Assembly: GCF_900115585.1 (NCBI RefSeq)
Contig: NZ_FOWZ01000002.1
Location: 496,001 to 560,000 of the forward strand
Reading direction: 5' to 3'
Source: Qipengyuania nanhaisediminis
GTDB taxonomy: Bacteria; Pseudomonadota; Alphaproteobacteria; Sphingomonadales; Sphingomonadaceae
DNA length: 64,000 nucleotides
Below the pieces are notes generated by a model. It had not been told where the DNA came from. It searched no databases and worked only from the letters and a program-made list of their open reading frames with translations. Below are positions 34,947 through 41,280 of the stretch, piece after piece. The position numbers and the translations under genes are program-made. Position 1 is the first letter of the stretch; each line of letters starts with the position of its first letter.

Positions 34947-37521
<2,575 letters not shown>

Positions 37522-37525
37522 CACG

Positions 37526-37933
37526 ATGAGCGCTGGCTATTCGGACACACCCCTCGCCAAGAAGCTTTCCCTGAGGGACGGGATAACCGTCTGGTTCGAC
37601 GGCATGCCCGAAAGCATCCTCGACGAGATCGATGAATATGCGCTCGAACTGACCTTCGTACCGGGCCCGGAAGCCGGGCCGGACGCCGCCCATATCTTCG
37701 TGACCGATCAGGCCGCCCTTGAAGAGAAGCTGGCCGTGCTGCGCGACGCGATTTCGCCAAACGGCCATGTCTGGGTCAGCTGGCCCAAACAGGCGTCGGG
37801 CGTCGCCACCGAAATCGACGAACACGCCGTGCGCGAAGCGGGGTTGGCGCTGGGATTCGTTGATACGAAGAAATGCGCGGTGGACGAGACCTGGTCGGGC
37901 CTCAAATTCGCCATCCGCAAGGATTTGCGCTGA
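37526..37933 (+). CDS. DUF3052 family protein
   Basis: 135 residues, soluble. Family features GYSDTPLAKKLSLRDG at the N-terminus and VWVSWPKQASGVATEIDEHAVREAGLALG followed by CAVDETWSGLKFAIRK. No function is known. The ATG at 37526 is used; longer readings from 37478 lie inside the upstream gene. Convergent with the first coq4-like gene. Confidence 0.85.
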   Translation: MSAGYSDTPLAKKLSLRDGITVWFDGMPESILDEIDEYALELTFVPGPEAGPDAAHIFVTDQAALEEKLAVLRDAISPNGHVWVSWPKQASGVATEIDEHAVREAGLALGFVDTKKCAVDETWSGLKFAIRKDLR

Positions 37934-37936
37934 TAC

Positions 37937-38728
37937 TCAGGCAGCCTGCTGCTGCGGCGGCATGATCTGGTCTTCGGTCAGACCCTCTTCCCGCATGATT
38001 TCCAGGCAGCGGAAATAGGTCTCCGGCCTGCCGACATTCAGCCGCCTGCGCGCGACATCGATGTCTTCGCGCATCACCTGCTCGACATCCATATGCGCGA
38101 GTTTTTTGGCTTCCTTACCCAGGCGCCGTCCTTCGTTGATCGCAGCGAAGATCGGGGCCGAGGTGCTTGTCCCCTTCTTGATCTGGCGTGCACCGGCGTA
38201 CGCGATGAACAGCACGCCCGGATTGAGATTCTGCTCGTAACTGAAGCCCAAGAGCGCTGCTTCGCCCAGGGCGTCGCGTCCGTAACCGGTCAGGATATGG
38301 AAGAGATCATGCGTGTCGCGCAGGCGACAGAAATACCATTCCGTCAGGTCGTCATGGCGGTTTTCCGGCGGATTGAACTTGTGCGACTCTGCGACCAGGC
38401 CCGCTGCGGACAATCCCTCGCGCTTCATGAAGGCAATGTATTTCGCGGCCACCGTATTCGGCCCGCAATCGGCCCAGCGTTCATGATCGTCGAGCATGGC
38501 AGGAATGTCCGTGCCATTGTCCAGGAACCGGCGTCCTTCGTCCGATTGCACGAAATTCCATGCCTGCTGGTGGCTACGCTTGCCCTTCAGCGATTCGATG
38601 ATGTGGAACACCTGCGCGGTGTCTTCCTTGTCGGCGACGAGTTTCCGGAAATGCCGCCATGCCTTGAGCGGACGAATGCCGCTGGTCTTGCGGTCCGGAT
38701 GAACGAGAGGTCGATCAGAAAGCGCCAT
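37937..38728 (-). CDS. Coq4 family protein (copy 1)
   Basis: 263 residues from the ATG at 38728, preceded by GGAG at 6 nt. Coq4 in ubiquinone synthesis was recently linked to oxidative decarboxylation at ring C1. The zinc motif H-D-x2-H-x11-E is intact: HDLFHILTGYGRDALGE. The neighbouring RPETYFRCLEIMREEG is also conserved. It is divergent from a nitroreductase and related to the second copy 0.8 kb away. A standard ubiquinone role or a different hydroxylation/decarboxylation both remain possible. Confidence 0.85.
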   Translation of the reverse strand: MALSDRPLVHPDRKTSGIRPLKAWRHFRKLVADKEDTAQVFHIIESLKGKRSHQQAWNFVQSDEGRRFLDNGTDIPAMLDDHERWADCGPNTVAAKYIAFMKREGLSAAGLVAESHKFNPPENRHDDLTEWYFCRLRDTHDLFHILTGYGRDALGEAALLGFSYEQNLNPGVLFIAYAGARQIKKGTSTSAPIFAAINEGRRLGKEAKKLAHMDVEQVMREDIDVARRRLNVGRPETYFRCLEIMREEGLTEDQIMPPQQQAA

Positions 38729-38753
38729 GCGAGACTCCATTGCAGGCAGCAAC

Positions 38754-38767
38754 TTACAATACTGTAA
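38754..38767. promoter_or_regulatory. Palindrome between coq4-like copy 1 and the nitroreductase gene
   Basis: TTACA-ATAC-TGTAA, two perfect 5-bp half-sites with 4-nt spacing, lies 26 nt upstream of the coq4-like start and 58 nt before the nitroreductase start. It is a likely operator (TetR-like size) for a divergent promoter pair, by inference only. Confidence 0.5.
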
Positions 38768-38824
38768 ATTGCCTGTCCATGTAACGGGTTCCCTTTCACG
38801 GTCGGAACAGGGATAGGAGGGACC

Positions 38825-39496
38825 ATGCAAGATCACGAGACAGTAGCCTATTCCCTGCCTGCAATGGACGATGCGCAGCGTATCGAGCGCGCGCGTTCCA
38901 TGCGGGACAGGTTGAAGGAGCGGCGCACCTGCCGGTATTTTTCCGACGCGCCCGTTCCGCGTGAGGTGATCGAAGCCGCGATCGAGGCGGCAGGCACGGC
39001 ACCCAATGGCGCGAACCACCAGCCGTGGCATTTCGCCGTCGTCTCATCGCCCGAAAAAAAGCGCGCCATCCGCGAAGCTGCCGAGGCAGAGGAACGCGCA
39101 TTCTATGCCGGCAAGGCGAGCGAGGAATGGCTCGATGCGCTGGCGCCCCTGGGCACCGATGCCGACAAGCCGTTCCTGGAGACCGCACCTTGGCTGATCG
39201 TCGTCTTCGCCCAGCGAAAGGGCGGGATCGCCGAAGACGGGAAAACGCAGAACTACTACGTCAACGAAAGTGTCGGGATCGCCTGCGGAATGCTGATCTC
39301 GACCTTGCACGAAGCGGGCCTCGCGACGTTGACCCACACCCCCTCGCCCATGGGTTTCCTGCGCGAAATCTGTGAGCGGCCGGAATACGAGAAGCCGCTG
39401 ATGGTCATCGTAGCAGGGCTACCGGCAGAGGGAGCCACGGTGCCCAAACACGCTCTGGAAAAGAAACCGCTGTCGACGATCAGTTCCTGGCTCTGA
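38825..39496 (+). CDS. Nitroreductase family protein (iodotyrosine deiodinase-like)
   Basis: 223 residues, FMN-dependent fold. [21 protein letters not shown] and [14 protein letters not shown] are the FMN-binding N-terminal features, with [21 protein letters not shown] and [11 protein letters not shown] later. The arrangement is close to the deiodinase/dehalogenase branch. A strong GGAGG lies 4 nt before the ATG. It sits between two Coq4 homologues on the other strand; electron transfer to a quinone-like intermediate would be speculation. Confidence 0.87.
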
Positions 39497-39500
39497 CTTT

Positions 39501-40298
39501 TCAGGCCCGACGCGACAGCAGACGGTGCGGGTCGATATTTTCGTCCTGCCAGATCTCGTGGCAGCGAAAATAGGCAAGCGGTGCCGAGAACCCCAGCACC
39601 TCGCGAGCGTGATGGAGGTCCATATGCAGGATCTCGCGGATGGGGTGGCCGACAAGCCCCTCGCAGCCTTTCCCCGCGCGCCGCGCTTCACGTGCGGCAT
39701 CGATTACGGGTGCCTGTGTCTGTACCGACTGCCTGATCTTCAGAGCGCCTGAATAGCCGAGAAGGAGGTGCGCGGGACTTGGCGAGTGGCCGTGCGTGAA
39801 GAGGAGGACACACGCCTCTCCCAGAGTGTCCCGGCCATAGCCTGTCATCACGTGCAGCAGATCATGCGTATCGCGCTGTCGCCAGCCGAACCATTCGATC
39901 ATATCGCCGTAGATCGGCCTGCCGGACCATGTGCCTTTCCTCGCCAGGCCTTCTGCAGTCAGGCCCTGCTCTTCCATGAAATCGCAATAGGCCTGTCCGA
40001 CCGACCCGGTGGGCATAGCGCGCAGCGCTTCGCGATCGTCTAGAATGTGCGGAAGATAGGGTTCCGTTTTGCGGAGCATCTCCCCATGATCGCTTAATGC
40101 AAGCCGCTCGGCATCCGGTTCGAAATGCTCGGACGGAAGGGCGTCGTAGATATGGAAAACGTGGGAGGTATCTTCCTTGTTTTCGACCAGCTTGCGGTAG
40201 TGGTGAAGGGCCCGGCGAAGATTGCGTTTGCGATAGGGGCGCACTGGATGGCGAAACGGGATTCCGTCTGCCGCGTGATCCACGCCCGGTCCGGCCAT
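39501..40298 (-). CDS. Coq4 family protein (copy 2)
   Basis: 265 residues from the ATG at 40298 (MAGPGVDHAADG); a GTG at 40319 is an alternative. H-D-x2-H-x11-E is intact in HDLLHVMTGYGRDTLGE. It resembles copy 1 throughout (RKLVxxKEDTxxVFHI, LxYFRCHEIW) but is clearly divergent, so the duplication is old. It converges on the nitroreductase gene with a 4-nt gap. The upstream region has three CAATAGG repeats. Confidence 0.83.
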   Translation of the reverse strand: MAGPGVDHAADGIPFRHPVRPYRKRNLRRALHHYRKLVENKEDTSHVFHIYDALPSEHFEPDAERLALSDHGEMLRKTEPYLPHILDDREALRAMPTGSVGQAYCDFMEEQGLTAEGLARKGTWSGRPIYGDMIEWFGWRQRDTHDLLHVMTGYGRDTLGEACVLLFTHGHSPSPAHLLLGYSGALKIRQSVQTQAPVIDAAREARRAGKGCEGLVGHPIREILHMDLHHAREVLGFSAPLAYFRCHEIWQDENIDPHRLLSRRA

Positions 40299-40327: not shown

Positions 40328-40366
40328 CCTATTGGGACCGTAGCGCCCTATTGTGCGATCCTATTG
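40328..40366 (-). promoter_or_regulatory. Three CAATAGG direct repeats upstream of coq4-like copy 2
   Basis: On the minus strand CAATAGG occurs at 40366-40360, 40353-40347 and 40334-40328, starts 13 and 19 nt apart. The outer ones sit in small dyads (TCCCTATTGGGA). They lie between serB and the coq4-like gene and may bind a regulator; no regulator gene is adjacent. Confidence 0.45.
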
Positions 40367-40395
40367 GAAGGATGCGCCAAAAAACCGTATCATTT

Positions 40396-41280
40396 TCAGC
40401 CTTCTACCCAATCGGATCGCGCGATACCAAGTAGCGAGAGCAAGACTTTAAGGTCTTCGCTGACTATCCGGCCGCTTGCCGCATCGCGGGCCTTGGGCTT
40501 CGCCCGGTACGCAACGCCGTAATCCGCGGCGACAATCATGGGTATGTCGTTGGCACCGTCTCCGGTCGCCAGGACGCGCGCTCCCTCGCCCAGCTGGTCC
40601 CGCTCTTCCTCCAGCGTGGCGAGTTTAGTCGACGCATCGCTTACGGGCCCTGCCAACTTGCCAGTGAGCTTGCCCTCGGCAACGGCGAGTCGATTGCCGA
40701 CCACCCGATCGAAGCCGAGCGTTTCAGCGACAGGATCCGCGAAATGATGGAACCCACCGGTGACGAGAACTGGACGGCAACCGTGGCTCTTCAGCGTCTG
40801 CACCAGAGTGCGTGCGCCTGCGACCGGGCGAATACGTTCATCCAGGCATTGCTGGATCGCCGTCTCGTCCAACCCCTCGAGCAAAGCTACGCGTTCCCTG
40901 AGCGCCGCTTCGAAATCGAGCTCGCCGCGCATAGCACGTTCGGTGATTTCGGCGACGTGCTGCTTTATGCCCGCATAGTCCGCCAGCTCGTCGATACATT
41001 CCTGCCCGATCATGGTGCTATCCATGTCGGACACGAAGAGCCGAGGAATTTCAATGGCATGGTCGGCGACCAGCATGTCGCATCCGCCGAAACTTTCGGA
41101 CAGGATGCGCGTGACAGTGTCGGCCTGCCCGTCGGGGAAGGTGATTTCCAGTACCTCGCCGCAGAAATCCAGCATGGCAGCGGACGCCAGCGGCATTCCC
41201 GCCTGGCCCAGCTGCGCCCGCGCATTTTCCAAGCGGGTTTCCAGTCCCTCCTGCTCTGCTATCAGTCGCGCGATGAGCAC
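40396..41280 (-). CDS. serB: Phosphoserine phosphatase
   Basis: Removes phosphate from phosphoserine in serine synthesis. 294 residues with an N-terminal regulatory-like domain and a HAD core: [19 protein letters not shown] (DxDxT), [41 protein letters not shown]. The start is a GTG at 41280 with AGGAG 8 nt before it; this overlaps the miaA start on the other strand. Confidence 0.95.

Follow-up and report, generated by a model that had tools for sequence, protein, structure and literature searches.

Divergent Coq4 paralogues at the purL-serB locus of Qipengyuania nanhaisediminis and their predicted place in a TetR lipid regulon

Two genes of the Coq4 family, coq4A and coq4B, lie on either side of a nitroreductase gene in a 64,000-nucleotide stretch of the Qipengyuania nanhaisediminis genome (contig NZ_FOWZ01000002.1, positions 496,001 to 560,000; called here the window, with positions numbered from its first letter). 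The reading favored here, at a probability of roughly 60%, is that the pair represents old paralogues beside a long-resident nitroreductase at the purL-serB locus, and that Coq4 would belong to a lipid regulon controlled by a TetR-type regulator, with a job in lipid metabolism and not as an obligatory step in ubiquinone synthesis. Membership of Coq4 in a conserved TetR regulon is well supported by comparison of genome sequences, and a lipid or isoprenoid task is suggested by the company that the gene keeps in this regulon (an acyl-CoA ligase, a thioesterase, a P450 and a ketolase-like gene) and by a fold that has been seen with a fatty acid.

The window belongs to a genome (G000) of 2.9 Mb in 12 contigs, listed as 100% complete, and the comparisons drew on 289 genomes of the class and 196 genomes of the order, of which 113 are from the window's own family (f1) and 83 from others. 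The sampled genomes are related and counts across them are not independent events. Tallies made by hand comprise the family size of 113 (105 matched plus 8 unmatched genomes), the presence of UbiD and UbiX, nitroreductase adjacency, the counts for each regulon target and the input to the Fisher test.

Operator, regulator and regulon

The initial annotation had noted regulatory-looking sites belonging to these genes, an expectation borne out for coq4A, which is preceded by a match (TTACAATACTGTAA) to the palindrome TKACA-N4-TGTMA, and not for coq4B, whose upstream region contains no operator, the best pattern match having 3 mismatches. In a first count, a site was present within 300 base pairs (bp) of 87/194 unique coq4 genes, compared with 95/5741 windows of 320 bp from the same loci, a control that includes the coq4 upstream regions themselves. 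Among representative coq4 genes (<82% identity), 75/109 had a site with no more than 1 mismatch and 52 had an exact one, compared with 16/2016 random windows from the same loci (2 exact) and 3/109 coq4 upstream regions when reversed (0 exact). Within the family, a site at this threshold precedes 65/86 coq4 genes and is found in 59/68 genomes, in a tally that covers 68 of 74 genomes (G080, G097, G114, G167, G180 and G194 fall outside it). In addition, positions outside the search pattern are conserved, mainly as T-A-Y to the left and R-T-A to the right, and these flanks are much alike at the 65 coq4 sites and at 45 sites of other regulon genes.

Matches to the pattern are also enriched elsewhere, with 8 in the window's genome versus 3 for a reversed control pattern, and 70 versus 18 in nine further genomes. 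One of the eight lies at coq4A, and the space between a TetR gene and a PF10118 gene holds a tandem pair; a P450 gene, an AMP-binding acyl-CoA ligase gene (fadD), a 4HBT thioesterase gene and a small gene each have one upstream, and one is elsewhere. Across these ten genomes, the recurrent site-bearing targets are TetR/PF10118 (9 genomes, in two of which, G025 and G044, the TetR frame was placed with the coordinates given by the TetR search), the thioesterase (9), and the P450, fadD and the small gene (7 each), and the last of these has no family match in Pfam or NCBIfam. The operator shared by the genes of a TetR regulon was thus found upstream of its members, and seven of the ten genomes have coq4, which carries an exact site in six of them (not in G077).

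Downstream of the thioesterase in the window's genome is a CrtW-like gene (214 bits, under the NCBIfam cut-off of 350), and at L085 (4590-5800), L264 and L272 an operator-linked thioesterase gene is followed by a CrtW-like gene (also sub-cut-off) or a gene with an FA_hydroxylase domain. Carotenoid tailoring may be tied to the same TetR through such thioesterase-linked genes.

Orthologues of the TetR gene (G000:C6:256818-257411) are found in 101/113 family genomes at E 2e-37 or better, and coq4 of the type studied here is present in 73/101 genomes with this regulator versus 1/12 without it (Fisher p 2.6e-5, with no correction for relatedness; G121, G155 and G186, which have distant Coq4-like genes only, were excluded). 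In G053, the single genome with coq4 and without TetR, the operator is missing from coq4. In another family, f5, a TetR gene whose product is 31-35% identical to that of the window's genome is divergent to coq4 in at least 11 loci, and in 7/11 of these the spacer contains a palindrome that is longer and built on a similar core (for example, ATATTGACAACACTGTCAATAT in L091). The regulator resembles known TetR-type regulators of acyl and lipid genes in its small size, its tandem palindromes, its divergent target and its fadD and thioesterase targets; it differs from them in that no NCBIfam regulator model scores over its cut-off (best 27 bits versus 120). The tandem autoregulatory sites suggest that it is a repressor.

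The two Coq4 copies

Both Coq4 frames are intact and match PF05019 well above its gathering cut-off of 22.9 bits (47.6 bits for coq4A, 46.0 for coq4B), and among named sequences they match best those of Erythrobacteraceae, such as Qipengyuania and Erythrobacter. As the initial annotation had described, both retain the HDx2Hx11E metal motif, whose columns are invariant across 35 aligned rows, and both flank a flavin mononucleotide (FMN) nitroreductase. A check for further coq4 genes, proposed in that annotation, found only these two PF05019 matches in the whole 2.9 Mb. The start of coq4A is likely the ATG ending at 38728 (MALSD...), as judged by comparison with relatives.

Predicted models of coq4A and coq4B have predicted local distance difference test (pLDDT) scores of 92.2 and 92.7, and the top structural matches of both are two cyanobacterial Coq4-like proteins with the same fold, Alr8543 (Protein Data Bank entry 6e12, with oleic acid and Mg; the oleic acid is bound according to the entry title) and 3msq, to which identity is just 17-20%. 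For coq4B the comparison with these Coq4-like structures (Alr8543/3msq) gives Z 18.3 over 204 residues at a root-mean-square deviation of 3.2, and among the matches listed no entry apart from 6e12 and 3msq reaches Z 5; for coq4A the Foldseek E value is 1.4e-5. The Pfam family, metal motif and fold are all shared with eukaryotic COQ4/Coq4. The eukaryotic protein acts in coenzyme Q biosynthesis, whereas Coq4 of the window's type is patchy and dispensable in its bacterial family, is duplicated here and falls, together with lipid genes, in a TetR regulon. In humans COQ4 is a disease gene, and a catalytic role was only recently assigned to it. Among the matches listed by a literature search, none was a paper about Coq4 from these bacteria and, as far as the available portions of those sources go, none assigned a role to bacterial Coq4.

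That the two genes are divergent paralogues, as first proposed, is confirmed by their 35% identity and by a 109-sequence tree that puts them in separate clades. Its A clade, of 18 rows (support 100/100), groups with an uncultured Sphingorhabdus and G119 (support 95/92), and the B clade (56 rows, 100/97) includes Novosphingobium and Parasphingopyxis. Because the A and B copies fall in separate clades, their split must predate the genus, and it is probably older than the Erythrobacteraceae on the evidence of this tree. A recent tandem duplication was considered and rejected, as the A clade lies outside the B clade and groups with Sphingorhabdus and G119.

Aligned sequences from the genus show A to be better conserved and B to evolve faster: coq4A is 94-95% identical to the copies at L033/L034 and 83% to those at L035/L036, and the corresponding values for coq4B are 91-93%, then 62% (L035) and 66% (L036). 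The operator (no more than 1 mismatch) is found at coq4A in each of the five two-copy genomes of the genus that were read and at coq4B in none of them; related two-copy loci (L037-L044) have it at B in 8/8 and at A in 6/8, and six single-copy genomes of the genus have an intact B that has lost it. Since the operator is at A only in the two-copy genomes, B appears to be on its way out of the regulon in this genus; A, where present, is the better conserved copy and appears to be the regulated one. Upstream of coq4B, at 40328-40367, where other coq4B genes carry the operator, CCTATTGG or a close variant of it occurs three times.

The missing operator at B, the lower identity of B to the L035/L036 copies and the long B branches in the tree (0.36 for the window and 0.32 for G187, plus 0.31 shared) would all fit decay or redundancy of coq4B in the window's clade, with coq4A alone being of importance. 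This is very unlikely, given that the B frame is open in all five two-copy genomes and the metal motif is intact, that B is still 91-93% identical to the L033/L034 copies, and that B is intact, with no operator, in the six genomes of the genus that have a single copy. The paralogues are truly divergent and one has an operator, and a role other than housekeeping ubiquinone synthesis, as the initial annotation proposed for one copy, is likely.

The same annotation had assumed that most genomes have one coq4, which is wrong for the class: PF05019 matches occur in 27/289 of its sampled genomes and in 95/196 genomes of the order, where a more sensitive family-specific profile (A1) gives the same 95. 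In the window's own family, 77/113 genomes have a Coq4-like gene and 36/113 have none.

Several more distant Coq4 genes were seen in the course of this survey. G145, G142 and G161 have a further copy (L102, L103 and L104, respectively) that has no operator, and the neighbors of these copies include, among the matches listed, acyl-CoA-dehydrogenase-like genes (L102, L103) and P450-like genes (L102, L104), named from clusters. L121-L125 form a distant branch, mostly with HDxEH plus GGGF or GFG in the motif region, that is multicopy in some genomes. In genus g2 (L106-L111, L113), coq4 is near dnaN- and recF-like genes (names read from sequence) in most loci, and the motif of three sequences is HDIWHVLTGY, with one extra residue before E.

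The nitroreductase and the purL-serB locus

Assignment of the nitroreductase to a deiodinase-like branch in the initial annotation proved correct. The protein passes the PF00881 cut-off with 84.7 bits, its closest solved relative is 5ko7 (E 3e-61), which we take to be a bacterial iodotyrosine deiodinase (IYD), and animal iodotyrosine dehalogenases follow (E 5e-43). The five best chains are 5ko7, 4ttb, 3gb5, 5yak and 3tnz, all but the first of which carry the name iodotyrosine dehalogenase or deiodinase. It also has in common with these enzymes the E, Y and K columns, with a spacing of +4 and +21 in the alignment with 5ko7, which are presumably the binders of the substrate zwitterion. Halotyrosine dehalogenation as its activity is a plain guess from these similarities.

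Adjacency of the nitroreductase to coq4 had led to the suggestion that coq4A, the nitroreductase and coq4B form a dedicated module for modification of a quinone or other aromatic ring. An orthologue of the nitroreductase (at least 300 bits; G157, whose match is weaker and whose coq4 is distant, was left out) is present in 53 family genomes. In 39 of these its distance from coq4 is no more than 2 kb, which would fit such a module, as would the position of the coq4A operator, which lies 57 bp ahead of the nitroreductase start and may govern that gene too. However, the nitroreductase gene is convergent with coq4B and divergent from coq4A, which is not the layout of an operon, and five loci with a single coq4B (L048, L051, L058, L062, L072) have the strict site ahead of coq4B, with none ahead of the nitroreductase. 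Moreover, coq4 is elsewhere in 2 of the 53 genomes and missing from 12, and in all 12 of the latter loci purL is nearby; in G134, for example, the order purL - nitroreductase - serB - miaA - ilvB is kept and coq4 is simply missing. The absence of coq4 from these 12 loci stands because the coq4B query used also picks up A copies (E about 1e-46). The three genes are thus not consistently found together, the proposed module is unsupported and is now most improbable, and the nitroreductase was rejected as an obligatory partner of Coq4. The link between the nitroreductase and coq4 is one of place.

The features of the locus are collected in Table 1. The small gene with a sub-cut-off DUF3052 match is often found between purL and the nitroreductase in related loci. 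A promoter scan found nothing beyond shuffled sequence (1 found versus a shuffle mean of 0.9), and clustering of neighboring genes was noisy, with shadow open reading frames (ORFs) in this GC-rich DNA.

Table 1. Features of the coq4 locus, in window coordinates
Feature	Position	Strand	Basis
purL-like gene, syntenic anchor on one side	34947..37181	+	tblastn synteny; name read from sequence
Small gene, sub-cut-off DUF3052 match (20.2 bits vs 22.7)	37526-37933		Pfam
coq4A, Coq4 family (PF05019), motif HDLFHILTGYGRDALGE	37937..38728	-	ORF intact, Pfam match, tree, alignment, predicted model
Predicted operator TTACAATACTGTAA, coq4A/nitroreductase divergent intergenic region	38754..38767	.	pattern match TKACA-N4-TGTMA
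Nitroreductase, iodotyrosine deiodinase type (PF00881)	38825..39496	+	ORF intact, Pfam match, solved relatives
coq4B, Coq4 family (PF05019), motif HDLLHVMTGYGRDTLGE	39501..40298	-	ORF intact, Pfam match, tree, predicted model
serB, syntenic anchor on the other side	40396..41280	-	TIGR00338 over cut-off; synteny

Ubiquinone synthesis and the proposed role of Coq4

These bacteria make ubiquinone-10, and UbiA is present in the window's genome. A UbiD match over cut-off was found in 0/113 genomes of the family versus 76/83 others in the order, and UbiX in 1/113 versus 76/83, so ring decarboxylation in the family must proceed without UbiD. The sole family genome with UbiX over cut-off, G155, has a sub-cut-off relative of UbiD and a distant Coq4-like gene only.

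This gap gives weight to an alternative in which Coq4 would be an inducible or backup C1 oxidative decarboxylase in ubiquinone synthesis, like human COQ4, and the TetR regulon would raise the supply of ubiquinone when lipid oxidation raises electron flux. The need for a decarboxylase, the presence of UbiA and the intact metal motif of both copies are in keeping with this, as is the activity of human COQ4, which is reported, in the available part of the source, to be an oxidative decarboxylase at C1 (PMC11495197). On the other hand, the 36 family genomes with no Coq4 have no UbiD either, so another decarboxylase must serve those; 16/18 coq4 genomes of family f5 have UbiD as well; and an obligatory step would sit oddly in a lipid regulon. 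The alternative is therefore considered unlikely. If Coq4 were the C1 decarboxylase of the family, it would be expected wherever UbiD is missing, and these 36/113 genomes do not show that pattern. Because of them, and because of the coexistence of Coq4 with UbiD in f5, Coq4 is not a general substitute for UbiD, and its candidacy as the universal one in the family was rejected, though it could be an extra decarboxylase there.

A further route for C1 decarboxylation that does not use UbiD is represented by the decarboxylative hydroxylase UbiN of Rhodobacter capsulatus, as described in the available part of the source (PMC10626278); UbiN differs from Coq4 in being a flavin monooxygenase and is unrelated to it. 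According to the same portion of that paper, Zymomonas mobilis has neither ubiD nor ubiN (PMC10626278).

In the favored reading, in which Coq4 acts within a TetR lipid regulon, the two copies would be old paralogues settled on either side of the resident IYD-type nitroreductase, and the TetR would repress its targets by binding TAY-TKACA-N4-TGTMA-RTA, from which a hydrophobic ligand, acyl or other, would release it. Upon release, Coq4 would increase together with the acyl-CoA ligase, the YbgC/FadM-like thioesterase (with the CrtW-like ketolase downstream), the P450 and the PF10118 protein. Coq4 would then be a membrane-lipid metalloprotein with a job in lipid or isoprenoid turnover, and in the window's genus A would be the regulated copy and B would have left the regulon.

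Several observations weigh against this reading. Near 25/59 of the site regions fetched from the nine further genomes, and near one site in the window's genome, there is no recurrent gene; the 25 may be chance matches. The regulon persists in G134, G191 and G025, which do not have coq4, and coq4 is therefore an optional member of it. Nine of the 68 coq4 genomes have no site with up to 1 mismatch, namely six of the window's genus (G050, G068, G077, G142, G161 and G169), G116 (2 mismatches), G138 (a short match) and G053, and the flanks of the window's own site (AAC to the left, ATT to the right) agree with the conserved ones in part only. Measured against the strict pattern, the f5 spacers vary from exact (L091) through one mismatch (L087, L088, L094, L098) to 2-3 mismatches (six others), and several TetRs may share a site of this kind. 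Finally, a role in lipid metabolism would rest on the gene company of Coq4 and on the match of its fold.

In a broader and more tentative proposal, which we put somewhat short of even odds, these genes may represent a widespread bacterial Coq4 branch outside coenzyme Q synthesis, in which an inducible, TetR-run, lipid-binding metalloenzyme would act on fatty-acyl or isoprenoid lipids of the membrane, with the B copy of this genus released from that control. A whole family that makes ubiquinone is without UbiD, and all but one of its genomes are without UbiX; as Coq4 is no general substitute, the question of how the ring is decarboxylated in these bacteria becomes a sharper one. At the same time, the combination of a conserved operator, a regulator gene and a short list of targets offers a direct route to asking what role Coq4 plays in bacteria.

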